A stretch of DNA of 64,000 nucleotides from Dysidea avara (lineage: Eukaryota > Porifera > Demospongiae > Dictyoceratida > Dysideidae). Each line of letters opens with the position of its first letter. Position 1 is the first letter of the stretch. A model generated the notes under the pieces. The model saw only the letters and a program-made list of their open reading frames with translations, was not told where the DNA came from and did no database searches. This document shows, piece after piece, positions 10,386 through 64,000 of the stretch. The stretch lies in the NCBI RefSeq assembly GCF_963678975.1, contig NC_089272.1, positions 63,562,574 through 63,626,573 on the forward strand. The letters are read 5' to 3'. A program made the position numbers and the translations under genes.

Positions 10386-10429
10386 TAATTTTATTGAAAG
10401 TACATCGTACAATACAGTAGGACTGTATA

Positions 10430-26853: not shown

Positions 26854-27156
26854 CTAAGAAAACAAAAGAACATGTAGCTAGGTCATCCATTTATATGATC
26901 AACCAACTACAACCAAGGCTGTATTCTGTATTCTCGTAACATTTAGGTAAAGTGTAGAAACATTATTAACACAAATTAGAAACAAGGGTATTTCCGTGGG
27001 ACTATCCCATTACTAAAGCAACGATGACTAGCAGTTGATAGGATGCATAATAGTATATCAGGTGTCAAACAACCCATATATATGCACAGCACTTTATAGT
27101 ACATTCTCGTTTAAACTAGGAGTGAGTGTGCATGTATATAATTGTACGTAGCTATC

Positions 27157-39888: not shown

Positions 39889-42800
39889 TTAATATGTTGA
39901 CTGTGAATGTCTCTTCTTCTCCAGTTCACTCGTTAGTGTTTCAATGTCTTTCAACAAGTTACGTCTCTTCAGTTCTAATGTTGCAGTCTGTATTAGGGGC
40001 GTGGCTGACTGCTCTTCCCCTTCATCTTGCTGGAGTCCCTCCTTAATTGTGTCCTTCAAGCGACTGTGTAGCTGATCAATACGTTCTTGTAGTTCTGAGA
40101 TCTGGTGATCCACCAGTTCCTTAGGGGACCTGAATAATGATCGAGAAATTTTTCTTGTCTTTGTGGGCCTGTAGTAAAAGTAGGAAATAGTTTTACAACA
40201 GCAACAAGTGACTAGAACATGTGAATATATTATACAACTAATGTTATTCTCTACAGCAAACCATAACACACATCCTACATAGCAAAACCGTAGTCGGGTT
40301 AAGAGCATGCGCTTATAAATTTCGGAGAAAACTTTTCTAAAAATAGTACTATCACACATATGTGCAATAAATAACTTAACACGGAATCACTACATAAAAG
40401 TTAGACACCAAGACCAAGGGAACTAAGCGATTTAGTAGCCCCGATGGCCTGAGGCTGTAGCGTCCGAGCACAGCGAGGGTGCTACTAAGGGCCTGAGGGG
40501 TTACTTAATCACTTAGTTCCTGTTGGTTGCGGTGTCTAACTTATTTAGACTATGGTTTAAAGTACGTACCTTATAGCCAGAGCATGAGTGTGGGGTGAAA
40601 GAGCAATGCAGAACAGTGAACGGTTTCTTCCTGAAGTCCTTATAGCGCCCACAAAAAAATATTATCCGACCGGTAACCAGAGTAACAGCTAGAGCTACAG
40701 ACCGACTATGCTATATGATGTTCACCAGACCCTTTTCTTTCCCGCCCCCACAAAAAAGAAAGAAAAGGGTCTGGCTACGCGAGACTAATGCCACTTAGTT
40801 TACTATTTGTCCAGAATTATTTGCAGAACACGGAGAAGAAGAGTATTACAGTATTATCAAGTACTGTAGTGTGCCTTTCGTGTAATAATTATTTATCATG
40901 TACAAAATTGCTTGAGGGCGGGTGACTAAGTGAACATGTGTAGGTGACTAAGTGAACATGTCAGGTGACTAATAAGTGATTTAGTAAACCTGTAAATGAG
41001 CCATATCATAGTCTAAGTTGTAATAGAGCAGTTAGTAGTTTGGCAGTTTGTGCCAGATATTTCTGGGTGAAATCCTTCGTGATGAAGAAGAATATTGCAA
41101 TCCAGAAGGTTGATTTGCTGTATACATAGTAAAGGGAGACCTCAAGGGAGACGTAAGTGCTCAAGGAGACATTAATTTTCCAGTACTTCAAGATTTTCTT
41201 CCCATGGGTAGCTGTCATGTGTTGAGCCTCGCAATTGGCCATGTGCGCTTATCAGCCATGGTTAATCATAAGAAATGAGTGATTAACAAATTAACAAATA
41301 ATGCGTGCTTAATAGACACATGCGCTTAACAACCCAACTCTACAGTACAGAAACAGTACATAGAGTTACCCTAGTGATATCTTGTAAATACAACCCTACT
41401 GATGTATGTACATTATGATTACTCACAGCACTTCTGGTGTGGGTGGAGAATCAACTCTGAGTTGTCTTAATCTTTGATTGCTGACATCATCATTGAGATC
41501 ATGTGATCCAGTAACATGGTGATCAATGCTGATCAACTGGTGTAGTTTACCTTCATCAAGTAGTGACTGATAAGTGGCCAGTCTCTCCTGTATGTGCTGC
41601 AAGGAGATTATATACTCTGATAACCGCAGTTAATTAACACTTTAGTTGATGACAATTCCTTTATATCATTCACACAAAATTTTAGCCTTTCAGCTCTATG
41701 AACACTAGGTGGTCCTGGGCTCAATCGTTTACTGCACAATAGGTCCAAGACTAAAGTAAGGCGTAAATTCTTGCAGTATAATACAGAATTCAAACAAACT
41801 GTACTTGTACTTTAGAAATTGAAAACAAAAAACACCAAATTATCATATTGACCAAGACGTGCATATTTCTGTGCCTCTTTCAGAATTATACAATGAAACA
41901 TCAGATATCAATATACTCTAATAGAGCAGTCACTATTAGTCCCACAAAGCCATAATGACACAGGTAAACTTGTGCTATGTTATTACATTCTAAGTAAAAT
42001 ATACAATACTGCTGGCAAAATAGTGAACATAACAGGCTAAATAAAAAGAATCACTTAAAAAGCAAAAATATCACTGATCTCAGGAAAACTTCAAGTACTT
42101 CTATTTTATATACCAAAATGTATGAAAGTTAGCTGTGACAGATAAAATCCAAACAATTTGACCATCAAATGATTCTAAATAAGAGCAGGCCTAAGGTTTA
42201 CTCACCTCAGGGGAGAAATCAAGGTTGGATGGTGCATGGACCTTGACATTGATCAAGTCACTGACAACGTTGATTTTGCCAGTCAGTGTTGATGATGCTT
42301 GAATAGCTGACTCCATTGTTTGTGCCCCACCAGACAGTTGCGATAAGTTGAGGTGTGAACGAGCAAAGAACAAATCTTGACAACAAGTTCTGATGGCCTA
42401 TAGCAAACAAGTCACATGATATAAAGCAGTACATGTACAGAATGGAGAAAATGCTATTCTAGGCAAATACAAGGGCTAGCATGTAATGTTCTCACCTTAT
42501 AGAACTCCCTCAAGAAGTGAGGGTTGTAATCATCAGTTAGCTCATCCACTTTAATATGTGCCATACAATGCATCACTACCAACACAAACTCTCCCACTGT
42601 TTCCATACGTTCCTCACGGATGAACAATATCTTTGTCGTGTGTTGATAATGGAATGAGTTTCTGAAGCAGTTTCTTGTGTAGTTGTTAGGAGGAAGATTG
42701 GATGCTACAAGGATGGTCACCTCTGGCATTCCATTACGAGTTTGTAGTAGATTACTAACAAACACACCAAACCGATATACTACAAAATTAGTTGGTCGTA

Positions 42801-45800
42801 GTTTCTCAATGTCTACAGCAACCAGGCCACCAGTACACACCCACTGAGCATCTTTCAAGTCAATGTATGGACCGACTTGTATGCCATCACCAGCTGCTGC
42901 TCCTTGTAGTTTAACTATCGCCTCAATCTCTGATAACTGATTGAACAGTGGAGTAGACATCAGTAGGTTAGACAAGTCTTGTTCTCCCATCTCAACATTG
43001 TATGCAGCTGGTTTGGGTTGTGGTTTGGCTATCTTGGGTGGTATAACCTCACTCAGATCATCTGGTATATCTGGTGGAGGAGGATGGAGAATGGTAGTGG
43101 GTTGTTTACTCTCTGGAACATTTTCTGACATGCGTAGAGGAAATCCTGGTGTGGTAGGACGAGCAGCATCCTCAACATGTTGACGTAACTCATTTGCTTG
43201 TTGTTCATTCATCTTTATCAGTTCTTGTTGTTCTTGCTCATCAGCTTGTTGACGTTCAGTCTCTTCTTTGGCAGCAGATGCTTCCAATTCTTTATGTTTC
43301 TTTTCTTGTTTCCTCTTACGACGTTTAGCAATCTCATCTTTCAGTTTGGTTAGCTGACTACCTTTCTCATTCTCTAATTTGTCTTGTAAATGTTCCATAT
43401 CTTTCTTATGGTCCTCTATCAGTTGCTATAGAAAACAGAAACATTACATAAATACACATTTAATGATACATACACACATTATGTATATACCACCATCTCA
43501 TACAATAGCAGTGCTTACTTGTCTTTCTTGTTCAGTTAGGTTTCCCATTTTCGCCAACCTTTGCTCATGCTCCTGCTGTCTAGCAGCTAACTGGTTTTGC
43601 TGGATCTTGTCATAACGTTCTTTTAGTTCTTTCTGACGTAAAGTGTCTTTATTCTTTTCTCGTTGAATTTCAGCCTCTAATTCTTTAATCTGTTGTTCTC
43701 TTGCTCGTTTCCTTTCTTCTTCTTTTTGTCTTCTTGCTGCCTTAATGTCTTCTAGTTTCTTTTTACGAGCCTCCATCACTTCAGTACGGAACCTCTCTGC
43801 CTCGGTAGCTGCTCTCTCGGCCTCTTCTTTGTAAGATTGTATGAGAGCTTTCTCTGGTGTCAACTCTTCCATAACATTCACCAAATCTCTTATCTGTTGT
43901 TCCCTTAACTCTAATACTTTGTGATTATAGGCCACCTCTAGTTCAGGGACCACCTCTTTGTGAATGTTGTCCAACTTTTCTTCAGTTTTCTGATCAAATT
44001 CTGCTAACTGTTGTTGTAGCTCTTCATCAAGCTCTTGTTTCTTCTGTTCTAACTCTGCTTGTTTGAGGGATGCTGATTTTGAGATGAGTTCAACCATCGC
44101 TGCATCTTTCTTTGCTATTAGTTCTTCTCTTTCTTTCATTCTAGCTTCTCTTACAGCTGTTTTACGTTCTTCTATCACTACTGCTTTCTGTCTCTCATGT
44201 TGTTCAGCTAACTGGACACCTTCTCTCAAGTGACGCTGCTGTAGGACACGATATATCAACTTCTCTTCTTGTCCATCTTTTTTCTCTGCCAGTGCTTTGT
44301 TGAGGGCTTCCATTTCTGCATCCTTCAACAACTTTGTTTCCAGCTCATCACGTTCCTTCTTCTGTTCAGCTAGTAATCGTTCTCTTTCAAGTTTCTTCTT
44401 TTGTGCTAGTTTTTCAGCAGCTTGTTGTTTTCTCTCAGCAATCTTCTTAGACAATGCTGTCTTCTGTTGCTGTTGTTCTTGTAGTAGATTATCTTCAAGT
44501 GATTTCATATCTTCATGATGTTGTTGTAACATTTTCTCTGATTGTTCCGTGGTCATGCTGCGTTGCTTCTCAGCAAACTCTCTCTTAAAAGACAACTCCT
44601 TCTTTTGTAGCATCTATGAAAGCAAATCAATCAGCATAGGTTTATGTACATTTTGTAACATTGTATAATTCATGTAAGTATAATGTAGTATAATTAGTCA
44701 AACAAGATAGTTAAACTAACAAGGGTACTTCCCTGGGATTTCCCCATTACTAAAGCATCAATAACTATTTTGGATGCAGTGTGGTTTGGTTGCTAGGATA
44801 CACAATATATCAGGTGACTAGCAGACTATATATATACATGAACAGCACATGACCACATAGTTTATTAGAGCTATAGTAGGAGTGTGTGTGCGTATATGGC
44901 TTGTGGAAACCCTAGTCCTGAAATTGATATAGAAGTAGATGACCCAATGAAATTCTTTAAAGAAAAAGAGTAAGTTGACAAGCTCTTATATGTTTGTAAC
45001 ACCAATATATAGTTATTATACACTCATCAAACTGTGATGTGGTACATCCTTAAACTGCCTTTTTTTATAAATCAACAGTAGGCCAGAGTTCTTCTATCCT
45101 GGTGTGTTTGTTAAGATCAAAGAAGACTGGCCTACCTTACGATCCATTACTAGTACTGTACATTCTGTGTTCCATGGGACACACTTTGATAAAATGACAA
45201 GCATATGTACAGAAGATTATGCTTTTTTAAAACCACATAAAAAGAAATGGCGAGTATTAGATCGCAAAGATTACAATAAAGAATATTGCAGTTACACTAT
45301 TTCTCCAGGTCAGTCACCTGAGCCATTCACTTCTAAAGGGGATCATGTATTTGGACCAGTTGTATGGTTTAGTACAAGACAACATGAGACCGATAACTAT
45401 GGTCCTTGTCAGTTTGAGTTTAACTTCAATAGTGTCTTAGAGGCATACCAAAGAAACAGAGGAAGAACACATAAGATATGTTACAGGACAGCAGGAACAC
45501 TAGTATATGATAAAGAAGTTAGTCACGTAGTTCTGATATGTTGTATGGAAGATAAGGAACATGAGGAATTACCACTGATAACAGGGGGGAACACAACTTA
45601 TTTCACACCACCTGTTGAATTGGATAGAGTAAACGGCAGTCCAAAGTTAAATAGAGCAGATTTTCAAGTGACGACAAACGAGTATTGCATCAGACATGAA
45701 CATGTTGCTTTTGCAATATACCAGCCTAGATATCAGAAACTTTGTATTAGCATAAATGATGGTTTGTTGAGGCTCACACCTCATCAATATTGCATACCGA

Positions 45801-48800
45801 GTAAGAAGATAAAATGTAAATTTGCATGCAAACAAACACTTACTGTTGACAAACTTTACACATATGCGGCATGGCTAACATCAGAAGCTAAATCAGTGAC
45901 ACTAAACATCAACTGCTATAAAGTTAACAAAAGTCATAGTAGCGTTGAGCAGCCAATAGTTAAGAGTTTTGCAGATGAAACAAACAAACAGGAAGCATCA
46001 TTGACAGCAAAACTTGAAAAGCTTGACAAAAGTCTTGAAGAAAGTTTCTATTGGCTAGGTGACATGGACGCTACAGAATGTTGTGATCAACTACAAACAC
46101 TTAGTGAAGACTATCACCAACATAACAATAGTTCTGAGCATCCTAACTTATCAGATGATGATGAGGGAGATAAAGTGATCAGCCAACTAGATAAAAGAAC
46201 TGAAAACGGTTTTGATTGGCTGAGTGATGTGAGTGATACAGAGTGCGATATGACCTGATAATTTACATACTGTTTTCATACAGTATAGTTTGCTAACGGT
46301 GTTTGTTGATTTTCAAATATAACAATTAGATTTTATACAATTTATTTTGCAAACATCATAATTAGCCATGTACAAGAAACCCAAGAAATGTGTTTATACA
46401 TTACTTCATTATTAATAATGCTACACATGTAAACTACAATGTAGTATTACATAATGCACACACATTGATGGGTTTTGCCAAGTTATTAAGGAAATGTAGA
46501 TACGTAACTATCAGCCTTGGTCCAAACACAATTGTCTAGTTCTGTACACCTTTACATACACAAGTGACACTACGTGAAACCCTATGGTGCCAATAGTACA
46601 GTATATTCGTGGCTATGACCAAAAAGAGAAAAGTTTTCTTGGACTGCTGGGCTACCACATTAACATTCACACAGTTTCACATTGGTTTACTACCATCACA
46701 TTTATATACACCATGGACTGTCATGTGTTAGTAGTGCAATCGCATACATAACAGTGTCCTTACAATTGATTTCAAGATTTGTAATAATAGAGGTACAAAT
46801 TGGTTTAGTTTTTAAAAATAATAACTTCTAACTATATATGTGCACATATTAGTATGTCTATTGTGGCTTTTTAAACATACAGATCAGCCACTTAGTACAT
46901 AAGCCGTTTTAATTGTCTTAACAACCCTTTCCAGTGCACAGGATGTGACTGGGTCTCATCGCCCATGACAGCAGATTTGATCTTTTTTCCCCAATAACAT
47001 AAAGCTACATGAACAAACTATCAAATTTCACAATCAAAATCAGCTAGACTTAAATGGTCTGCTTTTGCTGGCTGCTTTTCCCAAGCCCAGTGGTGAGTAG
47101 TCTGGGGCTCTGGCCAGCCTGTGGATGTCTACGTATATGTGGTAGGGTTGAGACAAATAGTTCAAAGTTTCATTTGGTTTCATAACTTTTGGATACTGCT
47201 TTACCCCCTTCGGAGGATGTATTTGTACATTCGTTCCAACCCTAGTATGTGGTTGTACACCTCCGTGGTGTTGAATAAAGACCTGTGCTGTAAATGTCCT
47301 TTAATTTTAGCTAGTTTTGATACCTGAATGGTCCATATCTTGGCCTAATTCATCCCTACGCCTTCCTCTTTAATTTTGTAAACAACCTCTTGCCCTCCTC
47401 CCACCCTTTTGGAGCTCACCTGGTACAGTCAACAACTATCTACAATGGCGCAAACTTAAGTAGACATTGGGTGGCCTGCAGTTCAAATCCTGGGGTAGGA
47501 GGGATTTTTTTTCCTTTCTCTGGCCTATAATAATAAATAATTAGATTTAAAGGAAGAAAATCCATCCCCCCTGGAGGAAACCGAGTGTGGCGCTCGACTA
47601 GACATTGGGTGGCCTGTGGTTCAAATCCTGGAGCAGGAGGGATTTTTTTCCTTTCTCTGGTCCATTTCTGTTTTACCTTATTGTTAAATCTCGAGCAAAA
47701 TTGTGTGTGCGAGCGAATGTGACGTCACGCCTGGGCAGTAAGCACCATGAGCAATTGGTTAAAACATGTGAAATTTGGTACACATAGCTTCAACCATTGG
47801 TGAACTGGAATACACTAAATACTAAAATCTGGAATTTCTCAATACATTTAAATAGGTGATAAGACCAGTTTTCCCAGACTAGGTTACAAATGGGCATCGT
47901 ATGGCTTATAAATACTTCAATGTCACCTTATTTAAACTTTAAGGTGTATATCAATGCAACTGTCATTCATGTTTGTTAACAATATTTATGCACACACCTT
48001 TTTCCTCTGTTGTTCAGCTTGTTTCTCTACCAATTTCTGATGTGCAGAGTTCTCATTTTCCAATTCTTGTTCCACCTTCAGTCTCTCCTGCTCAATCTCC
48101 ACCTCCAGGCTGGTCTGTTGTTGGACTTGTTGCTCTACTAGTGACTCTCTGGCCTGTTGAGCCTCAACTGACTGTGCCTCAACTTGTGGTAGTTGTCTTG
48201 TTGGGTCACCAAGTTGAGCTTGTGTAGCCGACGACACCTTCAACTGCTCGTTGACTACCAACTCCTTGTTGATCTCTTCTTGGACAATGTTTTGAGCTGT
48301 CATTAGAGCTACCGCCTGCACCTTCCTCCATTTGTTCTCCATATCAACTTGTTTGTCTACCTCTTCAGCATCTTCCTTGTACTGGTTGATCAAAGCATCT
48401 TTTGACTGTTCATCAATGTCTAACTTAGCTATGGCCTCCTGTTGTTTCTTGCGTTCTTCTTCCAGCAGGTTAGCAGCTACTGCCTGCATCACGATATCCT
48501 CCACCTTCTTAGCATTAATCAGATCTGTATCATCTTCTGAGGTACTGTCAGTAGGGGACCTGGGCTGTCGGCGGCGTCCCTTGATGCGTGATGCTAGTCG
48601 TGATTTTACTGAAGAATGGCGGCTAGTCATTGAAGTAGAAGTGTCATCATCATCTGATATGATTTGTTGTACTGATTGTCTCAGTGTGTCATTGAGCTCC
48701 CTCATTCTTGCCTCCATCTTCTGGTTCATTGCATTTCTCTTCCTTGTCGTCTCATCTTCATCATCGTCATTCTCTGCTGATAGTAAATCATTCAGTAATT

Positions 48801-51800
48801 TCTGTTGGTGTTTTGCCAACAGCTCAAGATCTTTCTGTAGCTTGTCTCGTGACATTATAGCACTGTCGACCAAAGTTGAGTCCTCTAGTCCTTTAGATCG
48901 AGCCTCCTGTTTGTGAGCTTCAGCTAGCTCTTGTTGTTTCTGCAGTCTTGTCTCCATTAGTACAACTTGCTGTTCTTTGAGTCTAGCAAACTTCTCTGTT
49001 TCCAATTGTTGCATTAACTGCTCTATATTCTCAGTGTGTTCTGTGAAATAACAAGAATACGTGCATCAACTAGTACTCATTACTTTGAAATGCAACATTA
49101 TAGTAAAACTTTTAATAGTAAAACTCTCACAGGAGTTCTTTGAATTACAGGGAACAGTGCATTCACCTACCAAGGTCCCAAATAAACGTCTATATATTAA
49201 ACAGATATGTCATTTTACGGAACACAAAAAAATGCATTCCCCAATTACCTTCTGCTTAAGGAATTACAACAAAAACATATTAGTCACTTACTGAGAATAA
49301 TTTGTTCTTTTTCTTCCTCATGCGCTGCAGACAATTCTTTCTTCATTTCTTCAACAGCTTCATCTATTGCTTGTTTGTTCTGACGTTCTGCCTCTTCAAG
49401 TAGTTCCTTAACGGAGGACACTTCTTGTTCATGCAATGAAGTCTCCAACTTGACATTTTCAATGGTGTGCTTTTCAATCATCTTCTTTGCTGCATCTTTC
49501 TTTTTCTGGCTACTGGTTGCCGGTGACAACAGATACCGTGATGACGACACCTTCAAACTGTCAGTTGATGAACTAGCATCGATGGAAGGTGCTTCAGTAA
49601 TAGCTACTGTGGGTATCGTCATGGCAGCAGCCGCTGGGTCGGCAGCACTTGTGGGCTTCACTTCAGCAGTTGCTACACCACCATGTGGGGGTGGACTAAT
49701 TAGATGAGCCCTTTCTAGTTTGAGTTTATCAAGAGATCTTAGTGACTGAGATTTTGTTAGTGAGTACGATGATCCTTGTTTGTGCTTCATTCCTTTACGA
49801 CTGAAGCTTCTCTGCAATGGCTGATCTTCAACATCACTTTCAGATTCTTCATGGAGTGTCTCCATCCCATCGTCTTTGAGAGTATCCAGTAGCTGGTTGA
49901 GTAGTGGCATTAGTTGTTCACTGCCAGGAAGTGATGTCACAGACAGTGGCATAGCCCCAGGGTGGGGAGCTGTCATCAGATGTATTGTAACATCGTGGCT
50001 ACCGACTTCAACTATTTCACCAGTCAGAATAGCCTAAAGCCAAAACAAACACATAGTATTTATATACACAAAGGCAACTATGGATTGCTCATCGCAAAAT
50101 TTAAATATTGGCTATACAACTAGTAAAATCTCTTACATCACTGCTAATAGTTCAAGTGTAATGAAAGTGTGGCTCAAGATAATCGCTACATCTCTACAGA
50201 CGTTACCTTAGCTTGATCACAGCACAAGCTGGCCTTGTCCCTGACATACTCCAGGACACTGTGTTCCTGATCTAGCAGTTGTATCCTAGAGCTGACCAGA
50301 CCATCCATTTCAGCTTGTAGTCTGCCAATGTCTTCTTTGTGCTTGTTCCTGTAGCTAGCCTCTGCCTCCGGATTATGAGCATCCTATAATACCATAGTGA
50401 AAGTTAAAATGTTGTACTGTAGCAAATACGTACATATTACATGTTGTACTGTAGCATATACGTACATATTACATGTTGTACTGTAGCATATACATTACCA
50501 TGCTTATAGATCCATCCAACTACATGCACTGTAATGACAGTGTACAATTTACAAACTGATCTTTTAATGGGTCCTGTAGTAGCATGTTTGCTCCTTTGCT
50601 TTGCTCGGGTACCACAACACAAGGCCTTCGGGTTACTAAATTCTGTAGAACCCTGTGTTGATGTTTACTATTATTTATAATATACAAGCAAAAATTAATA
50701 CGAACTAAAGCTGAGCTTAGATACAGTATATAAAGCCTTGGCCCACTATATTGTAATATAACACCTATGATAGCAACAATGATAGTCAGTCATACTTACT
50801 GCTAACTCATCCATCCTTTCCTTGTACTTGCTCAGTGCAGTCTCAAACTTGGCAAGGAATTTCTCTGCTAGTGTGACAAACCTTTGATGTGTGTCATCCC
50901 TTGCCTGCACCTGTGTGGCTTCCTGCTCATCCATAGTTGTCAGTATAGCTAGTATATCAGCTGGAAGGTGTTTAGTGAGATTTTGAGTGGCTTCAGCTCG
51001 TCTTGCGGTTTCTCTGGCAGCCATATCCCTAACTGCTTGTAGCATGTCAGCAAGACTCCTCAACTGCTCTGTAACCTAAATGAGAGGAAACTATTATAAT
51101 ATTCGACCTCTTACTTTACTGTAGATATTAGCTCTACTGAGATATAAGCCGATCTTAAATACAGGCCCTATGCTTTTATTGAGGTCATTGCTCTAGTAAA
51201 TATAATACCATTTGTAGGGAATATCCAGTACAACAAACCCCTGGGTTCACATAATTCCCTAATGTAGGTCATACCTCAGAGTGACTGATGGTATCAGGTG
51301 ATCCCATTAATCTAATAATGTTAGACTCATTGTTGATGATGTCATCTTCTTGTTGTTTCTGACGACGCCATGAACTCCTACGAGCTACTATTTCACCTTC
51401 CAGTGCATCAAGCTGTGTGTTGTAAACGTATATCAATAAACAAATAATAAATATAATACAATCTGAGAAACTTGCATACATTCAGAGTTAACAAAGCTAG
51501 CAGTGCTTTGTGGAAAACATATAGGTATTGTGTACTCTGTTGTATTCATGATACACACATACACACACACGCACGCATGCACACACGCACGCACGCAGGC
51601 ACACACACACACGCACACACACACTACAAGCTAACCATTTGCTTGTTGACTTTTCTCTTCTGGCTAACTGGTTGAGTGGATGGTACTATGACTCCAGTGT
51701 CTGGCCTTCGTCGGACACCATATATGGGCATAAGCTCATTAGAGACTTCGTCCAGGGTTTTCTGGCCAATCACAATGGGTACAGTGCCCCTACCCTGAGG

Positions 51801-54800
51801 GCATTCCATGGTGCCAGCCAGTGGAATCAAAATTCCAGTCTGTTGTGGGCTCTGTTCCCAGTTCAGGATTGGAACATGGACACCAGTACCTGCAGGATCT
51901 ACAATCTCCATTCCAAGCAGCACAGGAAGCAGCTGCCCAGTGGGCGTGTACTCCATAAATCCCGGACTTCCCCCAGTGTTGCTAAACTTCCTGGCCTCAT
52001 CAGTAAGAAGGTTAAGCCTGTGCAGCTCCTGTAAGTGTAGGGTCTGATTTCTGTTAATATTTCTACTAACATCTCTTAGAGCTTGCAACAGATTACTGAT
52101 GGCATGTTGAAATATAAATTCCTCCTTGATATCATGGCTGGTAGCTACTGCCTTTAGTTTCTGAGCAGCTAAAATAACTTCTTGGATGGAGAGAAGTTCA
52201 TTGGTATCAAGCAGACACTGAGCACCACCGTAGTTCTGTATTACAGTGGAAGCATCACTATCAATACTAGCTGAAGTGCAGAAGACGGTTAAGGAAGACA
52301 ATGGCTCGGAGAATTGATCATGAAGTAGTAATGGTTTACTGGCACCATTGACAACCACTTCACCTCCAACAGGTAGAACTCTACCAGATGAGTTAATCCT
52401 GACACCGACAATAATTGTGGGCATGTTATGTTGCCTGTTTAACATCATAGCTCCTATTTCTATTGGTCGGATTATACCAGTGATGGGGTCAACGTAAGTT
52501 CCGCCCACAGGCAGTCTTGCTCTAGTTTGAGGATGGATTGTTACAGCACAGACTGGCACATTGATTCCAGACATGGGATCAGCCATCGTTGCTCCAAGCT
52601 TCAACTCTGACAATTTCTTGAACATTTTCAATCCAGTGTTAACAGGCTGTCCTGTGTTAGGATTGGTTGGATATGGCACATACGGTAATAGTGAGTCTAG
52701 CAGTACATTAGAGCTAGTCAGTATATCAATAGTGTACACTAATTCATCTAGTACTGGGTTGAACATTACGTTGCCCTGGATTGGAACCAGTTTCCCGGAA
52801 TAAGGATTAATGCAGTATGTGTTTGGAGTTATGATGTACAGAGCTCCGTCATGTTGTTTCATTCTGGTTCCCATTCCAGCTGATATAATACCGGTAACTG
52901 GATCCTGGGTTGCTATGGATGGGCCCACACTTGACAACAATTTGCCATCAGAGTCAAGTAGTTTCTCTCTTGTTATTTCTTCACCAGTATCCATGGAAAC
53001 CAGGGTGGCACCAGAGAAGTGACCAATCAGAGCATGTAGTCCTCTGTGTCGACACTCGTCTGAGAATAGTTTGGTCATGTGATCCAGTAATACGTCCACC
53101 CTAGCACCAACCCTATGACAAAAATTACAACCAATGAAATAACAGTATTGTGAAGCTTGAACACTTAGACACTACAGACAAGTGTACTGATTTCAGGTCT
53201 GAAAGTGTTCACGCTAACACAAATAAAGCCTCTTCAAAGTGGCTACATTTCATGAGGGCCGTATAGCATAATTTACAAGCCATAAAAAGAGGTGTTGATG
53301 TGCTATGCTGAAGTTACTGACCTGTGTCTAAGCTGTTCATCAAATTGTGACAACAAGTCATCGTGATCTCTTGAGGTGTGGAACTGTTGTAGTGTCCGTC
53401 TGATCTCCCTGACAACTGCTGATATGGCAACACGATGTCTACCACGACCTTCTTCCCTCTTCAACACCAGTTGCTGCTGAGCAGCTAACAACTCAGTGTA
53501 AATTCTACCAAACAATTTCCGTCTCTCTATTTCTGCTTTCAGTAGTTCATTGGCTGCCTCGTACGCTTGTAACTCTTCTGGGGAGGCAATGTCTGATTTA
53601 CCCCTGAGATTAAGTTTAGCCACCCAGAACCCCTTCAGGTTATCTGCCTGTGATGTGACGTGTTGATAGAGAGACTTTGCCTGAGGGAAATTAACACAGA
53701 CAAGTATTAACTAAACCAAAATAGAAGCTTCTTTTCTTTGTATACATTCCAATTTCTAATTTCTAATGTACTGCACACAGTAATTTGACTATTCGATAAA
53801 TGACAAACAAATTCAAGCTTAAGCCATTGAATCAATACACCTGTGTTAATGCAGTACAGTGGATGCCTCACAGTTACTTTAACCCCTGGGTGAACACCCG
53901 GTGTTCAGATAACTAATCTGATGTTGGCTGCTAAATCATTTGTAACAATAATCGTATCAACGTATTTTGACTACACTAATAGAACATTCATCAATCTAAA
54001 ACCACATTAGATTTTTTATAACACATACATGTATAGTTCTATACCTGCTCTCTCTGTTTGGCTATTTCACTGGACAGTTTCTTAGTCTGTCCCCCAAGCT
54101 CCTTGTACACTTGAGGGGCAGAGAATGCCTCAAGGTCAGCTTGTTTGTCATAGTCCCAGTGCTCATCTTCCTTCAGGGTAGATCCTACTGGCAGTGGTTC
54201 TGTGAGATGAGGAGGTAATGACTTATTTTATGAACAAGAATGATGTCATGATCATGTGATGTATTTAGAGTTAAGACATTATTGTAAAGCAAACATCAAT
54301 TTTCGCATCCATGGATTTATTAGATTTTGTCATAAATATACACACACATACAATATACGGACATACTAACAGACAACCATACAACACACAGATATGGACA
54401 AACAAACAGACAAGCTACATACCCTCCTCTGCCCCACCCCCAGTCAGCTGCAGGGAAGCATGATGAATTTTCTTCTCTGGTCGGACAGTGGACCCTTTAG
54501 AAGAATAGTTATCCATGTTACTGTGCTTCTGTAATCGACGATAGTACGGGAAATAAAATGTCTCCTTGTTCCACCCATACTTCCTGAATAGCATCTATGA
54601 AATGATATGACAACATCTAATAGCAGTTTACGTAGTATAGATGTTATCTCAACTACATGACTGATAGTGACAGTATAGTTAGAGCACTGTGAATATAAGT
54701 GTACGAGTGGTTTATCAGAGCCTTGAACGGGTATAAAAAATAAAGTCTTTCAATGAATGACAAAATTCAATTATGCTATGTAACGGCACAAAACAAAGAC

Positions 54801-57156
54801 TCACAGTAGTTGTGTCAGATGACAAAGCTAGTACAATAATATTATATGCTGCAATGCCCGTTTAAAGAAACACACACAGACTAAACTATTTGTACAAACA
54901 CTAACACACACAAACTACATTCACCCATACACAGATGGATGGACGGAGATAGAATCCTTACCAGTGCTATTAATATCAACAACATTACCCCCACAGCTCC
55001 AGCAATTACACTACCAATCAATATCCAGTCTGGAGCCAATAAGATGTCATTATTACGTGTCATTCCCATTTGAACGGCTGTTCCTGAAGTGAATGGGAAA
55101 TATGGCCCAACTTCTGGACACTCTGTATTAGCTTCAGTCACTCTGATATACTAGATAATAAGAGCAACAACTAACATTTTGTATCACAAAGGACAACTTG
55201 ATCCAATTCACTATGTAATGACTGCATTAAAGCCTAGCCAAAAATCTCAAACAAAGTCCAGGAGACACCTAAACAAAGACTAGGGGGAAGGCCAGGTGAC
55301 TCCTTATTGTAAACAAGCAGTGTTACCTTAAAGTACAATACTATAATACTTCAAATTTTAGAACATGCAAGGACTAATGAAACTTGTGACAGTTTATCAA
55401 AATGATGACTGCTACAAGGAGAAATAGGAAGGTCAAACAGTTGATTATATTTTTAAAAATCACAAAACTTCCAATGGATAAACATTGTACAGAATTCATT
55501 AAATACAAATTATACAACTAACCATTTTTCTATTAGCATTGTTGCTCAGTTGGAACACATACACTCCTGATGTCATGAACCTATATGCAAACAGTGTAGC
55601 ACTTCCCGATGACGTCTGCTGATTCTCTAGCAACTGTCGGAATTGTCCATAATCAAATGCATCATTTGTGTTCAACAAGTTGTCAACATCATACACAGGG
55701 TAGGACTCGTTACTGATGGAGAACAGCATTGTGTCTCCTAGCTCCAGGCATGTTATTGGGTCATCAATGCCTTCAAATGTGGTGCCATTTAGTTGTAGTT
55801 GCTCAGTGGAATTTGTGTCAGTGGCGTCATCGGTTTGACGTCTTCTCCTTGCTGATGAAGAGTCATCAATGCCAAATAATGATAATAAGGAAGATGATGT
55901 GGCACCATAACTGCCCCTGAACCCTGATCCTGTGAGGTAGAATAGCCAGGGTTGAATTAGAAATTGAATTGTTTGGTGATTTTATAAATGCATTTACAAA
56001 ATTGAGCGTATTCTATGAAGGTTAACTTTAGTTAACCAAGGTTAATAAGAATGGAGGGGCGCGCGGCTTGCATGAGGGCATTTATTGGAATAACCAACCA
56101 AGATCTTATTGTGCGCACGTGCATATAGTTGTGGGAACCGCGTGAGAAGGTTGAATTCACCCACCCAGCCCACATTTCCCTCTATGTGTGACCAGATTTT
56201 GCTGTTATAATAAATTGTAAAGGTAAAGTCATTGTTTTTGTTTAATGTTTTTAGTTTCGGGTAGAACTATTTATACATTACATAACTGTGCCACTGAAAT
56301 TAAAGTTTTGTCAGCTATGGGATATACTCTCACAAATGGTAATGGACTGTACTACTGGTAACTATAGTCCTACGCAGGCAGTCTCGAATGAGTTGCTATA
56401 ATGAGTATGGTAGTACCTCAACAGAGATTCTTAATGAAGTAGCAGCTGTGGATGGGTCAAGTGTCAGGGAAGCTAATAAAGGTGCAACTACTAGTTTCTG
56501 CAATCCTTTGCTAACTGAGCTACACATTTGGTGAACAGTTGTCTGAATCATGCCTTTATTAATTCATTCCACTTATAGTGTTCTTGTTTGAAGCTAGCTT
56601 TGTAAAGTATTTCAGTACTGTTAGTGCTATGTAGCTATAATTATATTGTTATTATTTTCATTTTATTTCTCCGGTTAAGTGAGTCCCCCCTCACTTTTCC
56701 ATGAGGTGGCTGGATGTAGTGGAAGGGACCCTTCTCACTCATTCTCCCCCAAGCTGAAGGTGCTAAGCTTTGTCATAGAGATAAATACATCCTTGTACAC
56801 TTCTTTACCCAAGGCAAAGGGTAGAGAATAAGCATAACAGGAGAGGGGTCCTCAATTAAGAATCCTATCTTGAAGGGTTTACCTACACCCAGCTGCCAAA
56901 CCTCTATTGTAGAGTTTTGGTAGGAGTGATTGATGTTGGCTTGTATATTGTATATCACCGAAAGTACTTATCAAAGACTAGTATGCTAAATTGGTTAACT
57001 TACATGCATGTGCATGGGTGTATGCGTACACATACACACACTGCACACACATGCACGAACACATACACACACACACACACAAACAAACACACACACACAA
57101 CACATGCACGAATACATACACACACACACACACAAACACACAACACATGCACGAAT

Positions 57157-57196
<40 letters not shown>

Positions 57197-57215
57197 CACA
57201 TACATACACGAACAC

Positions 57216-57294
<79 letters not shown>

Positions 57295-57401
57295 CACACA
57301 CTACACACACATGCACGAACACACCACACACACATGCACAAACACATTACACATACACACACACACAAACACACACCACAAACACATACACAAACACATT
57401 A

Positions 57402-57470
<69 letters not shown>

Positions 57471-57614
57471 ACACACACACATGACACACACACACACACA
57501 CACACACCACACACACACACACACATCACACACACACACACAACACACACACACATCACACACACCCACCACACACTACACACACACACACACACACTAC
57601 ACACATCACACACA

Positions 57615-57650
<36 letters not shown>

Positions 57651-60600
57651 CACACTACACACATACTATGTAACACACCTCCAACTTCAGTCAGGTACAA
57701 TGGTACAGTCACACTGGTGTATGAGGTACATAGTGTTTGTGTGGTCTGTTCAAATGTTACCAATCCAGCAATACCACTAAGTGGGTACAACACCTGAGGG
57801 GATACGCAACACATAGTAAAACTGTGTACAAGATATAAAAGTAATGGCCAGTTATAGCAACACATTAACATGTACTGATAGTTTTGAAGTCTATGAAGTA
57901 AATTCTTGTAATTCTAGTGGTATTTCAAAAAACCCTACTGTAAGTACAAATTATGGTACAACAAGGAGAGCTGAGCACAGTGAAGCATGTTGGTAGCTCA
58001 CCTGAGCACCACTGTCATAGGTGATCATGATTTGGGTCTCTCCCTGACACACCAACTGCATTCTCTGCTGGACTCCCAGTCGACAAGAGATGTCACAAAC
58101 ACTATCAAGTGTTGGGCTCTGCAGGCAGGAAAATGACATTGTTAAGCGTGCCTCTAGGCTATAACATGTAATACTAACCATACAAACACACGTTCCAAGG
58201 TTCCTATCAAATCCAACATATTCCTCAGATGATCGGCACACCTTCAGAGGGAATACGACACAAAAATAATCATAAGAATAAACAAAAAAAAGACACAACA
58301 CAATTTTTTCCTCCAAAACTCTGTGAAGAGACACACCCCCTGTAGAGCAGTATTTACTGAATTTTACTCCAATTACAGAGGTTGTCCATTGATATTAATG
58401 TAGGTTTGTTTCCATTTTTCTTGCACAAAAGTGCAGTCTACTGAAACATATTTGAAATTAGGGTCTGGTCTATGCATTTACCATTAAGGATAACAGTTAT
58501 AACCAATAATGACATTATCTCTGAAGGGGTACAAGACCTCTATAGGAAGGGGTGAAAATTTTAAACAATTGAATATATTTCAGACCAGGTGGTCTCCAGA
58601 CAATTTGATAATAACATACAACACCAACATAATATCTTACTTGTGAAGAGCAGTAACTCTGCCAGTCAGAGGAGGATAGACAGTTTCCATCTTGAGATCG
58701 ATAACTACCCTCTGCACAGTTAGGGAAGATGTGTGGTACACAGTCATCTGTTCCACGTCCATAATCTTCATATCCTGCCTTACAGGGACAGGTTCCATCA
58801 CTGGGCTGTGAGAACATTTATACTTCACTAATACTACAAATGTTTTATATTATACTAAGTCAAGACTTTCAAATGATTGTGTGTGGTAAACAATTAAGAA
58901 ATACCAATAGAATTTTGCATAGCTTCAATAAAATATGCATACAGTAGTATAAATATATCTCATAAAGAAATGATACATTGTACAATCAAATCTGACTCTA
59001 AGGTAGAACACATTTCAACGCATACATGCTAATTATTAAGGTTTTGGTCACCTCTAAGCTTCAAAGGGAGGTAACACAACTAAACCGCTACTCACCTGGA
59101 ATTGTCTGTTCCTTCCAGCACATACACAGCTAGTAGATCCAACACTGCTAGTACTTGCTCCACTAGAGCAGTTGAGACAAGCAGATTGTGCAGGGACATA
59201 AGTGTAAGTGTGTAGTGGACATGGCAGACATGCTGTATCTGAATCCTGCTCCTCCAGACTGTTGTAACTGCCCTCAGGGCATGCCACAGGCTCTGAACTA
59301 CTAATAGGACAATAATGTCCTACAGGGCAGATGGATGAGTTGAACACCGGGACCTCCCCAATCACACTACCTCCAGTACAATAATGTCCTGGGGGACATG
59401 GTAAACATATTCTTGTCAGTTCTGAGTTGTTGCCATACGAGCCTGGAGGGCATGCTTCACATGTTGATGTCAGTGAGTCTCTTGTAAAGTTTTCTCCAAG
59501 GCCTAATGGCTCCCTGTAGCCTAGGGGACATATCAGAGGTCTGTCTGCTCCTCGTTCACCCTCAAGGCTACCAGTACAATTAGGTCCTTTGCAGTAATGA
59601 TCCTCAGGGCACAATGTGAAGTCAACAGAGCCCTCAGGGCAATAATAACCAGATGGACAAGATAGCCGGACGTCAGGTAAGGGACAATAATATCCTGCTG
59701 GACAGGTAAGGGGATATATTGACCCCTCAGGGCATGAAGAACTAGCATTACATGATATGGCATGAATGGTAGCATTGTTTGGACAATAGAATCCTGCAGG
59801 GCATGGAAAACAATCAGTGATATTTCCTCCAGTTGTTTCATTACGGTGGGTCCCCTCAGGGCACTCCACTGGTACAATAGTACCATAATCACAATAGTGC
59901 CCAAGGGGACATGGGTTGTGTTCATATACTACTAAACCTACACTGTCACAAAAATAACCTGCTTCGCAAGTCAAACAGGTTGTGATGTTTGAGGCACCAG
60001 TAGTGTTGGTGTAGGTGCCAATCGGACAAGCAATAGCTATACCATCTATACAATAATAGCCACCTGGGCATAACTCTGCTCTACTTGATGTTTGGTTACA
60101 CACCTTTCCTATGGGACAATCACCACAGTTGTCAACACTAGGAGCTCCATTACCATCAATAACCATGCCTGGAGGGCAGCTCTGTGGTTCATGTGTTCCA
60201 GCAGGACAGTAGTATCCTTCAGGACATGGCTCTCCTATTTCTGGCTGACTATCATCAGGGTTAGGTACACCATTACCAGAGTAGCAGATATAACCAGCTG
60301 TGCATACTCCAGCAATCTCACCAGCTACACAGAACTGACCTATTGGACAAGGTAGACATTCTCCAGCAGCTTGTAATCCAGTAGTGTTGTCTTCAGTGTA
60401 TGTACCATTAAGACAATAACTGGGATATGATGACCCCTCTATACAGAATGATCTTGATGGACACTCTATTGGAGTAATACTACCTGCAGGGCAATAGCTA
60501 CCTGGAGGGCATGTTAAGCACACATCCAGTCCTGTACTGTTAGAGTAGCTGCCTGGTTGACATGCCTGAGGGGTTGATGACCCTGGGGGGCAGTAGTGAC

Positions 60601-63600
60601 CAATTGTACATTCGTAACCAGCTGGAGTGGGCGTGTCTATGATGACATCATCAGGGCAATAATATCCAGGGCTACACACCCCTGTTGGTGCAGTCTGATT
60701 GGGTAACTGACAATAGTGACCGCCAACACATGGTCGACACTCATCAATTGCCCCCAGGCCACCAAATACAGTAACATTATCATCAACAATACACAGTGAT
60801 CCATTGAGTAATTCTCCTGATGATATATTGTATGGTGACATTGTGCCTGGAGGGCATGGTATGGGATAAGATGTTCCCTCAGGACAGTAGAAACCTGCAT
60901 CACAAGGTCCATTAATACCATCATTAGGGGCAGGACTGGTAGCCCCTGACAGACAGAGATATCCACTGGAACAATTACCAGTAGGAGCAGTGGCTGCTAA
61001 TACGTTACAGTATTGCCCTTCAGGGCACGGTTGACATTGTGTCATGTTGACAAGCCCAGTAACGACACTAAACGTACCCACAGGGCAGGGATCACCAGCA
61101 GACATACCTTCACTACTACAATAATATCCAGTGGGACAATTCTCAGTTGTGTTTAAACCTTCTTCTGGACATATTTCACCTACAGGACATGATAGACAGA
61201 ATTCTTGAGCTTCATCTGGTTGGTAAGTGCCAACAGGACAAGCTAGTTCAATTGTAGCTCCTGCCACACAGTAATGTCCCCGAGGGCAAGCATAACCTGT
61301 TACACCATCTATGGGAGATGACACATAGGCACCTGATAGACACACATATCCAGCACTACAGTAAGTATTAGTGATATTGGTGGAGTTCTCTCCTGTGCAG
61401 TATCTTCCTGGAGCACACAATGGACATGAGGAAGCATTGACAGTGTGGGTAGCTAAAGAGTATGTTCCTCCAGGGCATGGTGTTGGTTTATCACTGCCTG
61501 AGGGGCAGTAATGACCTACAGGACAAGCAAATTGCTCAGGATTAGGATCAGTGTTGCCTCCAGGGCAGTAGTAACCTTCGTAGCATTCACCCTCAGGTTG
61601 TGATAGACCAGCTTGACTACAATAATATCCAGCAAGACAGCTAGTACATTGGTCTTGTGAAGCCAGACCAGTGATGTTGTTATACATCCCCCTAGGACAA
61701 GGATATTGTGTAGCAAACTGTGTGCCATTAGGACAGACATATCCGGTGGGGCAGAGTAGATCAGTAATCAATGACACTACAGCAGTGAGGCTGTTGTCAC
61801 AATAATAAGATGATGGACATTGTTCACAATCTTCTTGGCCACTGTCTGGTTGGTAGAAACCAGAATCACATCTTGTTGGTTCATAAGCTCCAATACGACA
61901 GTAGTGTCCAGGTGGACACCTGAAATCATCTGGATCAGGAACAACTTGACCTCCAGGGCAGTAATAACCTGCATTACAACTTCCACTAGGCCTGGCTAGG
62001 CCAGAAGAGTTACAAAACATTCCTTCAGAACAGTTCAAACATTGAGAAATATTAGAAGCACCTTCAACAGGCAAGTAGTAGCCTACATCACATGGGGTGA
62101 GTGTAGCACTACCCTCAGGGCATACATATCCAGGAGGACACACCATATGTAATGGACTAGCTGCACCTGAGGTACAGTAATACCCTGGGGCACATATCAT
62201 GTCTGGTGACTCTAGACCACTAGTGGTACAAGCCCAACCAGCTGTGCAGTTTGTTGGAGAAGAGGAGCCTCTTGGGCAATAGTAAGAGATAGGACATATG
62301 TCACCATGAGGGGGAGATGGTGTGGCACTTGTAGCACCCTCTACACAATACCATCCTGGAGAACACAGCCTGTCATCAGTTAATACAGATAGTCCTAACA
62401 CGTCACAATAATATGTTGGAGGGCACAGTAGACAAGATGACTCGTTCACTCCTCTCTCTACACTAAGATAAGTACCCAATGGACATGGCTCCGGTGCCAT
62501 AGACCCCTCAACACAATAATGTCCTGGGGGACATGGGAACATGGTGTAGTCTGATGTAGCTTGTTCACAGTAGTACCCTTCAGGGCATGGATTACATATT
62601 GATTGTTGTTCAATATTAGTGAACTCCCCAGGAGGACATGGTATTGGTTGTGATGATCCCTGGGGGCAGTAACTTCCCTGAGGACACACTCCTCCAACTT
62701 GTAAAGGCATGTACAAACCATCATCTCCCATTCCTGATCCAGATGACACTTGTTGACAGTTAGTACTAGTTTGTGGATTAGGTACAGAGTTCCCAATAGT
62801 ACAATAGAATCCAGGATCACACTGTCCAGTTGGAGCTGTCAGGCCTACACGATCACAGTACATCTCAGTATCACACTCCACACACTGTTGTACACTATAC
62901 AGTCCTGTTGTATTACCATATGTGCCTATGGGGCATGGCCTGAGGTCATATCCCGTGCCCTCAGGGCAGTAGAAACCAGCTGTACACATGACATGACCTT
63001 CAGTTACATTATTCTCACTCACTGGTAAACAATAAAATCCTTCCTCACAAATGTCACATTCTCCCTGACCACTAGTAGCTGTATATGCACCTGGTAGACA
63101 TTGTCTGGGGTAGGAGCTCCCTAGAGGACAATGGAGGCCGGCTGGACATATTCCATCACTTGGGTTGGGTACAGTATTACCACCACTACAATAGTAGCCT
63201 GCTAAACATGGTCCCTGAGGTGTCTCTAATCCAGGTAGTGAACAAAACTGTCCTGAGGTACAAGGTAGACATTGTATCTCTTCTACTAAACCGTACATTG
63301 GTGAGTATGTCCCATTTGGGCAAGGTGTAGGGTGTGAACTGCCTGTGGGACAATAACTTCCTCGAGGGCATACAATGCCACTAGCATTAGATGAACCTTC
63401 AGGGCAATAGAATCCTTCTGTACATAATCCTGATGGAAGTATTAATCCATAATCATCACAATACATGCCTGAGGGGCATTGTGAACATTCACTGATCATT
63501 TGTAGTCCAGTTCTGTTGTTATAAGTTCCTGGAGGACACCTTGCTGGAGTGTCACTACCCTGCTCACAATAATTACCCTCAGGGCACACACCTCCCATAT

Positions 63601-64000
63601 CTGTGTCATCAGGTGTGGTAGTGTTGATCCCATAACGACAGTAGTATCCAGCGGAGCATTCAGTCGAGTCTTCAGTTAGTCCATATTCATCACAAGCCTT
63701 ACCACCGCCACATGGGGCACATCCTCCTGCACTACTGACACCTGTAAGGTTACTAAATGTGCCTAGAGGACAAGGGTGTTGTTGAGCATAGTAAGTGCCC
63801 TCAGGGCAGTAATAGCCAGAAGGACAAATATATGATGCATACGATACAACTGGGCTGGTCTCATTGTCACAGTAGAAGCCTGCAGGACATATTTTACACG
63901 TCAACTGCATCATCTCATCTTGATAGCTGCCTGCAGGGCAAGCACTTGGCTGGATACTGCCTAGAGGGCAGAAATGACCAAGTGGACATTGTAGATTGTC
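39889..64000 (-). CDS. Giant cysteine-rich transmembrane receptor-like protein with coiled-coil tail (5' partial)
   Basis: Twenty exons (minus strand): 64000-59096, 58805-58641, 58241-58179, 58118-58002, 57793-57679, 55929-55523, 55150-54962, 54594-54423, 54199-54045, 53680-53322, 53112-51636, 51412-51275, 51075-50800, 50383-50207, 50033-49292, 49040-47998, 44613-43519, 43425-42496, 42397-42206, 41596-41427, and the last, 40168-39889 with stop TAA (the 64000 exon is open, so it is counted as partial). Every junction has GT and AG, and codon phases match throughout. The visible product is 4388 residues, numbered here from the window edge. Residues 1-1690 are extracellular GCC2/GCC3 (ephrin-receptor-like) cysteine repeats; 1691-1965 are a less repetitive stalk with RRRR at 1816-1819. 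A helix spans 1966-1987. The remainder is cytoplasmic: DPxTG repeats (about 2217-2708), then charged coiled coils (2709-3990) and a conserved C-terminal globular part. A surface receptor or adhesion role is inferred. The link across the 3.4-kb intron at 44614-47997 rests on phase and composition; two genes remain possible. Confidence 0.75.
40404..40553. mobile_element. Small inverted-repeat element in the last intron of the giant gene
   Basis: The ends AAGTTAGACACC and GGTGTCTAACTT are inverted, followed inward by GGGAACTAAG(C)GATTTAGTA and its complement. The middle is GC-rich. A separate palindrome with ACCAGACCCTTTTCTTTC arms lies at 40728-40793 and shares its end TAGTCT(C/G)GCG with the MITE at 20315-20597. 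Three imperfect copies of GGTGACTAAGTGAACATGT lie near 40918-40975. Confidence 0.65.
44614..44895 (+). promoter_or_regulatory. Likely promoter interval of the nested plus-strand gene
   Basis: These 282 bp separate the splice acceptor of the giant gene's exon (44613) from the ATG at 44896 and are similar in the left copy (26854-27156). The region includes ATATATATACATGAACAGCA and a C/T-rich start region, but no defined box. The call rests on position and on conservation between the duplicates. Confidence 0.35.
44896..46258 (+). CDS. Two-exon gene, right paralogue, nested in a receptor intron
   Basis: Exon 1 is 44896-44969 (MACGNPSPEIDIEVDDPM; donor GA|GTAAGT) and exon 2 is 45079-46258 (acceptor ATCAACAG, with a NAGNAG alternative 3 bp later; stop TGA), phase 2, giving 417 residues. 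It is homologous to the gene at 27157 over about 300 residues, including FHGTHFDK, VFGPVVWFST with YGP, HKICYR and HVVLICC. The C-terminal extension carries two similar acidic words, FYWLGDMDATEC and FDWLSDVSDTEC, that the left paralogue lacks. No signal peptide or membrane helix is seen. A PARP-like ADP-ribosyltransferase fold is a weak suggestion from the HGT...IC and WFST...Y pattern; otherwise unknown. It lies on the opposite strand within the intron 44614-47997 of the giant gene. Confidence 0.8.
46259..46943. other. Intronic gap after the nested gene
   Basis: No coding frame or repeat is recognised. It is the right border region of the segmental duplication; similarity to the left copy stops near the stop codon of the nested gene. 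Confidence 0.4.
46944..47888. mobile_element. Inverted-repeat element, TGTGACCC family, copy 2
   Basis: The left end TGTGACTGGGTCTCATCGCC is diverged. The inverted right end TGTAACCTAGTCTGGGAAAA then CTGGTCTTATC matches copy 1 (10430-11070). The interior is shared in opposite orientation: TTGAATAA, AGCCTGTGG and CTTAATTCATCCCTACGCCTTCC. It carries two insertions: about 95 bp near 47150-47250 bounded by GGTAGGGTTG and CCAACCCTA, and SINE-like sequence at 47460-47670. Confidence 0.65.
47460..47670 (+). repeat. SINE-like tRNA block in two tandem copies
   Basis: TAGACATTGGGTGGCCTG(C/T)(A/G)GTTCAAATCCTGG occurs at about 47460-47492 and 47599-47632. It has a B-box-like GGTTCAAATCC and a following T-run, and the period is about 137 bp. 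Confidence 0.55.
51548..51625. repeat. (CA)n/(ACGC)n microsatellite in an intron
   Basis: An imperfect CACACACGCACGCA tract lies between the exons at 51412 and 51636. Confidence 0.8.
51636..53112 (-). other. DPxTGxxxP repeat exon of the cytoplasmic tail
   Basis: One exon of 492 codons contains about ten irregular units of 20 to 40 residues such as DPVTGIISAGMGTRM, NPYSGKLVPIQGNV, DPMSGINVPVCAVTI, DPITGIIRPIEIGAM and RPDTGVIVPS. The core is (D/N)P.(T/S)G...P(V/I)...G. It resembles a beta-hairpin repeat; I do not recognise a named family. Confidence 0.7.
54962..55150 (-). other. Transmembrane exon
   Basis: The exon ends with WILIGSVIAGAVGVMLLILI followed by AL, a single 22-residue helix (1966-1987), with NNDILLAPD before it. 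The next exon starts MLFRKYGWNKETFYF and then YYRRLQKH. The basic residues on the downstream side fit the positive-inside rule, so the tail is cytoplasmic. The splice acceptor is TTATCTAG at 55151. Confidence 0.85.
55523..55929 (-). other. Membrane-proximal stalk exon with RRRR processing-like site
   Basis: After a Ser-rich stretch the protein has SSSARRRRQTDDATD (codons near 55848-55833), a furin-type basic motif in the extracellular stalk about 150 residues before the membrane. Several N-glycosylation sequons (NST, NGT, NES) follow. Cleavage here would leave a cut but possibly attached ectodomain; this is inference from the motif only. Confidence 0.6.
57030..57660. repeat. Long (CA)n microsatellite in an intron of the giant gene
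   Basis: About 630 bp of CA repeats are interspersed with CATGCACGAACA and ACACATTACA words, inside the intron 55930-57678. All His-Thr and Cys-Val frames across it are artefacts. The rest of this intron (55930-57029) shows no gene. Confidence 0.9.
59096..64000 (-). other. Single giant exon of GCC2/GCC3 cysteine repeats
   Basis: At least 4905 bp without an intron encode 1635 residues of about thirty cysteine-rich modules. The modules follow the plan CPxGTYxNxTG, CxxCPxGxYC, CxxGYYCxxG, CPxGHYCPxGS. Asn-x-Ser/Thr sites are frequent (NITD, NTTG, NASS). Such repeats form disulfide-bonded extracellular rods. The frame is open at the right edge, so more modules and the signal peptide lie beyond it. 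The exon ends at donor CAG|GTGAGT. Confidence 0.9.

Follow-up and report, generated by a model that had tools for sequence, protein, structure and literature searches.

Among the proteins of solved structure, those closest by both fold and profile to the system analysed here are Mst1 and MST3 of the Chlamydomonas mastigonemes (PDB 8tx1, 8wa2, 9b4h), which likewise carry a long array of growth-factor-receptor-type cysteine modules. As described in passages of PMC11015965, MST1 is a secreted filament subunit whose cysteine-rich domain measures 678 residues and 26 nm and contains 26 disulfides, while MST3, with 8,572 residues and an intracellular end of about 1,600 residues, is a proposed length ruler. 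The present analysis concerns a stretch of 64,000 nucleotides from the sponge Dysidea avara (C1:63562574-63626573, on contig NC_089272.1; hereafter the window), and the genome searched comprises 550.8 Mb in 108 contigs. By its sequence features, the locus on the minus strand of the window is part of a gene for a giant single-pass membrane protein that extends beyond the window, and the predicted gene model is confirmed at this level; the extracellular part of the protein may form a membrane-anchored filament.

Within the window, the hand-built model runs on the minus strand from the edge at 64000 to a stop codon ending at 39889, and it consists of 21 coding pieces separated by 20 GT-AG introns, with phases matching throughout and zero internal stops. 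This agrees with the initial annotation, made on the same DNA, which had proposed a chain of phase-matched exons linking an ectodomain, a transmembrane (TM) helix and a cytoplasmic tail. Splice-site strength, expressed as leave-one-out percentiles, lies between 83 and 100 for the donors and between 57.6 and 99.6 for the acceptors, three of which fall below 85 (55151, the weakest, at 57.6; 51413 at 78.9; 50384 at 84.9). Two AATAAA words are found 3′ of the stop, at 39710 and 39634. When four 10-kb stretches to the right of the window were read, the ectodomain exon was seen to continue past the edge, within an open frame 8,819 codons long. With its start set at the best acceptor, this giant coding exon spans 85482-59096 in extended coordinates, that is 26,387 bp or 8,795 aa, and contains 930 Cys, 320 CxxGxxC knots and 207 N-glycosylation motifs; the longest human coding exons, those of MUC16 and titin, measure about 22 and 17 kb. 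Upstream of it, 12 smaller exons were provisionally modelled, starting from an ATG at extended coordinate 96167 that is followed by a signal-peptide-like stretch (MVKIPRSTFNPYVIVICILFLPSG).

The full provisional model has 33 exons and encodes 12,842 aa (1.36 MDa). The modelled ectodomain accounts for 10,418 aa, with 1,096 Cys, 358 CxxGxxC knots and 238 NxS/T motifs, of which 1,635 aa, 174 Cys and 53 knots lie within the window. If one module corresponds to two knots, 358 knots make roughly 180 modules; the figure of about 30 modules given earlier is right for the in-window part and far too low for the whole modelled ectodomain, and since the gene is truncated by the window and starts outside it, its size had been put about threefold too low. 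The model contains only one hydrophobic segment of TM type, and the tail past this helix measures 2,399 aa, in line with the single membrane pass and the tail of about 2400 residues that had been predicted.

A genome search with the C-terminal domain and the juxtamembrane/TM region located a second locus on the plus strand of the same contig, at 60.93-60.94 Mb and about 2.7 Mb away (L024 with L019-L023; C1:60890001-60950000). The juxtamembrane/TM region matches at these two loci only; the C-terminal domain also matches a decayed copy in the window and, weakly, one stop-containing place (E=0.95). In this paralogue the giant exon, taken up to the donor chosen for the model, is 25,959 bp long and is accompanied by a signal-peptide exon (MEVLRIVVILFTASLLHSVTSQ) of matching phase. 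One TM segment separates an ectodomain of 11,632 aa from a tail that has 1,463 aa in the model, and the membrane-side ectodomain, the TM segment and the start of the tail share one exon. The 5′ exons of both paralogues are provisional, as is the 3′ end of the paralogue beyond the C-terminal domain. The two giant exons are 38.6% identical over 8,905 aligned columns, and such an alignment, together with a frame of 8,795 codons, cannot be explained by chance. At the level of the models, the paralogue shares the plan of the window gene, with a signal peptide, a giant exon, one TM segment and a tail.

The Pfam profile PF07699 (Ephrin_rec_like) matches the window part of the giant exon in 10 stretches, with 49.2 bits against a cut-off of 23.1; on single super-repeats, one unit reaches 29.3 bits and another, at 16.9, stays under the cut-off. 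Judged by these profile matches, the ectodomain is made of GCC2/GCC3-type modules. Repetition occurs at two levels, with knots about 27 aa apart nested in super-repeats of ~692 aa. Specifically, a comparison of all windows along the arrays gives a period of 692 aa for the window gene (9.1-fold enrichment) and of 703 aa for the paralogue (6.4-fold), and shuffled modules, used as a control, reach 1.5-fold at best. The anchor spacings are 481, ten of 668-714 and 543 aa in the window gene, and 494, ten of 680-736 and 554 aa in the paralogue, with ten full super-repeats in each gene. A 248-aa probe of the array has at least 133 matches in the genome, 132 of them within the two giant genes (a lower bound, as the scoring covered 137 candidates), and its strong matches are spaced about 2.09 kb apart. 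Compared with one another, the 10 units of the window gene have a mean identity of 45.5% and the 12 pieces of the paralogue, 2 of which are partial, one of 41.4%; across the two genes the mean is 41.6%. Units of equal index are mutual closest in 1 case out of 10 (mean 0.433 versus 0.415) and are not clearly the closest. The simplest reading would be that the array had already expanded when the gene was duplicated and that both copies then retained its number of units.

Other proteins employ the same module type in a different way. PF07699 has matches in at least 61 places of the genome (150 of 234 candidates scored). Among four other GCC loci that were viewed, three (L033, L034 and L035) encode membrane proteins that are built differently: their modules are few, and other ectodomain parts appear long and Ig-like by eye, and in the fourth (L036) no frame over 150 aa was found. 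Eph receptors, ELAPOR1 and the Ig-plus-GCC genes of this genome share the module type with the window gene, but with few modules. In addition, Eph receptors have a kinase tail, whereas a Pfam search of the joined 2,399-aa tail of the window gene returned no family at E<=0.01 and no kinase domain, which bears out the earlier description of a tail free of kinase and other known domains.

To place the rod among known folds, a super-repeat was modelled with AlphaFold2 (the input being 17 full units out of 20, without the 3 that crossed borders between fetched stretches), with a mean pLDDT of 87.5 and a pTM of 0.43. In a Foldseek comparison with the PDB, in which 50 of 212 matches at E<=10 were listed, all 7 matches at E<=0.001 are Chlamydomonas mastigoneme chains (best 7e-24); next among the matches listed are ELAPOR1 (2.1e-3), TNF-receptor chains (from 0.14) and an Eph chain (0.63). 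A profile search of PDB sequences returned Mst1 alone (3.5e-16, with a composition bias of 58 bits on the best stretch). At the scale of Mst1, the giant exon would extend over ~0.34 micrometre and the whole ectodomain over ~0.40 micrometre. The likeness to the mastigoneme proteins has its limits. Unlike Mst1 and MST3, neither paralogue has in its ectodomain a run of four or more Pro, the feature taken to indicate a poly(hydroxy)proline helix; each has one TM helix and not the PKD-like multi-helix channel domain of MST3; and rod and anchor are predicted to reside in a single chain.

The region next to the membrane is also conserved. The pattern R-x-[KR]-R occurs only once in each of the two ectodomains, in both cases as RRRRQTD, at 149 aa from the TM segment in the window gene and at 145 aa in the paralogue. 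The segment that follows is conserved between the paralogues (YPVY, LLNTN, FDYG and two invariant Cys), and the motif makes cleavage by a furin-type convertase at RRRRQTD likely. The juxtamembrane domain gave nothing above cut-off against Pfam, and a cupredoxin-like fold is a guess by eye. A furin-type site outside the membrane, here about 150 aa away, is a feature in common with Notch-type cleaved heterodimers; the EGF, LNR and ankyrin domains of Notch, in contrast, were not reported by Pfam in the pieces scanned here. Basic furin-like sites, RSKRQT and RRRRAL, were also observed in the ectodomains of L033 and L034.

As for the tail, three pieces tested against NCBIfam gave no match. A Tweety match in the last-exon frame was sub-threshold (E=0.0016, 17.6 bits versus 31.8) and was gone in the joined tail at E<=0.01. 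The initial annotation had characterized the tail by coiled coils and DPxTG motifs, and both features are present in part. In particular, the DPxTG motifs (5 strict, 8 loose) all fall in the exon 51636-53112 and do not extend throughout the tail; the paralogue tail has zero strict motifs, and the block was not found there. The first 301 aa of this exon have a single match genome-wide, which is the exon itself, and a PDB sequence search with it found no match. The rest of the tail is largely charged helix, with weak hydrophobic periodicity in most windows and peaks mostly at 3.6-3.7 residues, and the coiled-coil label is only partly supported by such sequence. The conserved C-terminal domain is 38% identical between the paralogues and carries an HxxxH motif, HTLAH in one and HCMAH in the other; the zinc-peptidase form HExxH is seen in neither. 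Its structure prediction is poor (pLDDT 44.5), its fold matches to minigluzincin and LTA4H appear at E>=1.1 only and are not significant, and a PDB sequence search gave one chance-level match (E=0.5). A degenerate metallopeptidase is, on this modelling, a lead only.

Considering these features as a whole, we regard it as moderately probable that the gene encodes a giant single-pass membrane glycoprotein forming a membrane-anchored extracellular filament. The modules would stack into a disulfide-stiffened rod of ~0.4 micrometre, along which, judging from the size of Mst1, like surfaces would recur about every 27 nm. A proprotein convertase would cut between RRRR and QTD, the rod would stay on the membrane stub through contacts, and the tail would link this stub to the cell cortex or to the axoneme. 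The protein would have a mechanical role, maintaining at the cell surface a mesh, hair or spacer with a defined layout.

A number of observations weigh against this reading. The mastigoneme matches found by Foldseek have low TM-scores (0.13-0.23) and a large rmsd, and Mst1 is not reached by phmmer with a single super-repeat. Moreover, 171 aa of ordinary GCC modules from L035, taken as a control, also match Mst1 best (2.2e-10). For this reason the Mst1 match reveals the type of rod and not its location, and the control removed most of the weight of this match as support for a flagellar role. By this comparison, what Mst1 does show is that such arrays of cysteine modules can build filament rods; no placement on the flagellum follows. 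In the giant exon, 389 aa lie ahead of the first super-repeat anchor in the window gene and 10 aa in the paralogue, so that the exon starts differ between the two genes. The weak periodicity of the tail is a further adverse point, and the predicted cut at RRRRQTD could instead release the rod.

The initial annotation had seen in the protein a giant receptor; the single gene, the GCC2/GCC3 ectodomain, the one pass and the tail all stand, while the receptor role is only putative; no ligand or signalling domain was found. An adhesion or mechanical receptor, whose ectodomain would bind neighbour cells or matrix and whose tail would pass force inward, is nonetheless a genuine minor possibility, in keeping with the single pass, the long extracellular part and the long, structural-looking tail. 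The furin-type site near the membrane also resembles that of cleaved force-sensing receptors such as Notch. However, no known binding or signalling domain is recognized by Pfam, a regular rod of ~0.4 micrometre would exceed the needs of adhesion, and the fact that both paralogues have equally many super-repeats suits a structural filament better than a signal receptor.

It is quite unlikely, in our view, that the protein is a precursor from which a filament of matrix or mucus is released, the rod being cut at RRRRQTD and assembling outside and the stub serving for delivery only. Such a precursor would agree with the conservation of the single furin-type site in both paralogues and with the secreted nature of Mst1 itself (PMC11015965, in the passages cited above), but if delivery were the only purpose, the conserved juxtamembrane domain and the long, likewise conserved tail would be a costly addition.

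Least of all, two separate genes, one for the ectodomain and TM segment ending before 47998 and one for a coiled-coil protein from the ATG at 44613, are highly improbable and were largely rejected on phase, splice scores and paralogue tail, even though exon 17 begins with an ATG and, within the 3.4-kb intron, there are another gene and, on the minus strand, five AATAAA/ATTAAA words. The splice sites of this intron are good and in phase (Table 1). Ahead of it, tail residues 77-125 of the window gene match residues 64-112 of the paralogue tail (E=2.7e-6) and residues 1107-1215 match 217-326 (E=3.8e-4), and the tail sequence beyond it matches residues 657-1424 (E=2e-85); since both sides are found in order within the paralogue tail model, one continuous tail is supported, and the continuity across 47998/44613 assumed at the outset is retained. 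Compared directly within the window gene, the two sides show a weak similarity (E=0.032). The nested gene lies on the plus strand, with an ATG at 44896 and a main open frame to 46258. The genome contains 14 matches to its family, of which the nearest in sequence (58%) lies around 33071-33766 of the window, and no Pfam family scores above cut-off (best TBCC_N, E=0.077). The same intron contains interspersed repeat pieces (46952-47891) that are 74-83% identical, in inverted orientation, to others at 10427-11048.

Table 1. Features of the giant gene and its surroundings in the window (positions are those of the window)
Feature	Position	Strand	Basis
3′ part of giant ectodomain exon, GCC2/GCC3-type modules in ~692-aa super-repeats	59096..64000	-	open frame and model
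Exons 2-5 of the window part: ectodomain end, last cysteine-rich segments	57679..58805	-	model; paralogue match
Exon 6: RRRRQTD (furin-type site) and the larger part of the conserved juxtamembrane domain	55523..55929	-	model, alignment
Exon 7: end of juxtamembrane domain and TM helix	54962..55150	-	model; weak acceptor score
Exon 8: start of cytoplasmic tail	54423..54594	-	model
Exons 9-10: tail, with paralogue-conserved stretch (tail aa 77-125)	53322..54199	-	model, paralogue match
Exon 11: DPxTG block, no counterpart found in the paralogue	51636..53112	-	model, motif count
Exons 12-15: tail, helical and low-complexity parts	49292..51412	-	model
Exon 16: charged helical tail	47998..49040	-	model
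3,384-bp intron with small plus-strand gene inside	44614..47997	-	splice percentiles 99.5 (donor) / 95.8 (acceptor), phase matched
Exon 17: charged helical tail, ATG directly after acceptor	43519..44613	-	model
Exon 18: end of helical part and most of conserved C-terminal domain	42496..43425	-	model
Exons 19-21: remaining C-terminal domain, tail end, stop at 39889	39889..42397	-	model
Decayed partial 3′-end copy, comprising exons 17-19 and 21 and showing deletions	24208..27214	-	similarity

The decayed tandem copy has a DNA identity of 67-94%, depending on the piece, and its longest open frame on the minus strand is of 116 codons; a counterpart of exon 20 was not found in it. The intron between exons 5 and 6 contains a 636-bp AC-rich dinucleotide tract (57028-57663), and the gene next upstream of the giant gene resembles a DEAD-box helicase by eye. 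Elsewhere in the genome, a cathepsin-L-like locus (L028, C1:58505718-58505963, minus strand) carries Ser where the catalytic Cys would be expected (CGSSWAF), as silicateins do; the other seven of the eight loci fetched with a silicatein probe read CGSCW, as in ordinary cathepsin L.

Returning to the membrane-anchored filament, sponges offer possible sites for such a structure. Collar cells of sponges bear three extracellular structures, namely the collar mesh, the flagellar vane and the gasket (passages of PMC7755389). In a choanoflagellate, according to passages of PMC9671500, vane filaments emerge from the membrane of the flagellum and connect into a noded mesh; proteinase K did not remove them, and their composition is unknown. 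Thin filaments in a noded mesh characterize both the vane and the collar glycocalyx mesh of choanoflagellates and sponges. A tentative extension, which we rate as unlikely, is that both paralogues are filament proteins of the choanocyte flagellar vane and/or collar mesh, with ruler, rod and anchor in one polypeptide, which would make them the animal analogue of mastigonemes. The ten super-repeats would set the layout and the spacing of contacts, and the tail would be tied to the axoneme or to the microvillar core. The predicted rod length is of the same order as the 0.7 micrometre taken as the width of the vane in one calcareous sponge (PMC7755389, in part), which is a matter of consistency and not a test. 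Three statements in these sources speak against a vane protein: the proteinase K result was read by the authors of PMC9671500 as evidence of a carbohydrate or glycoprotein vane; vanes are set apart from mastigonemes in PMC7755389; and vane edges and filaments of S. rosetta often exceed fields of 1.2 micrometre, which is longer than one predicted rod (PMC9671500).

In the open PubMed Central literature, no paper was found to describe such a protein by its title or the start of its abstract, subscription papers and preprints lying outside this scope, and no relatives were found in viral contigs and prokaryote genomes. Wherever the protein is located, its gene presents a membrane-protein architecture that Pfam describes only as far as its modules. 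With two nested levels of repeats, most of its modelled length in one 26-kb coding exon and the same number of full super-repeats in two old paralogues, the protein is an obvious candidate for an extracellular filament that sets length. In one glass sponge in which head loss was measured, more than half of it is due to the collar mesh (PMC3236749, in part). If a site on the choanocyte flagellum or collar were confirmed, the molecular make-up of the vane or mesh would become directly testable, and this would be the first gene for structures of unknown composition.

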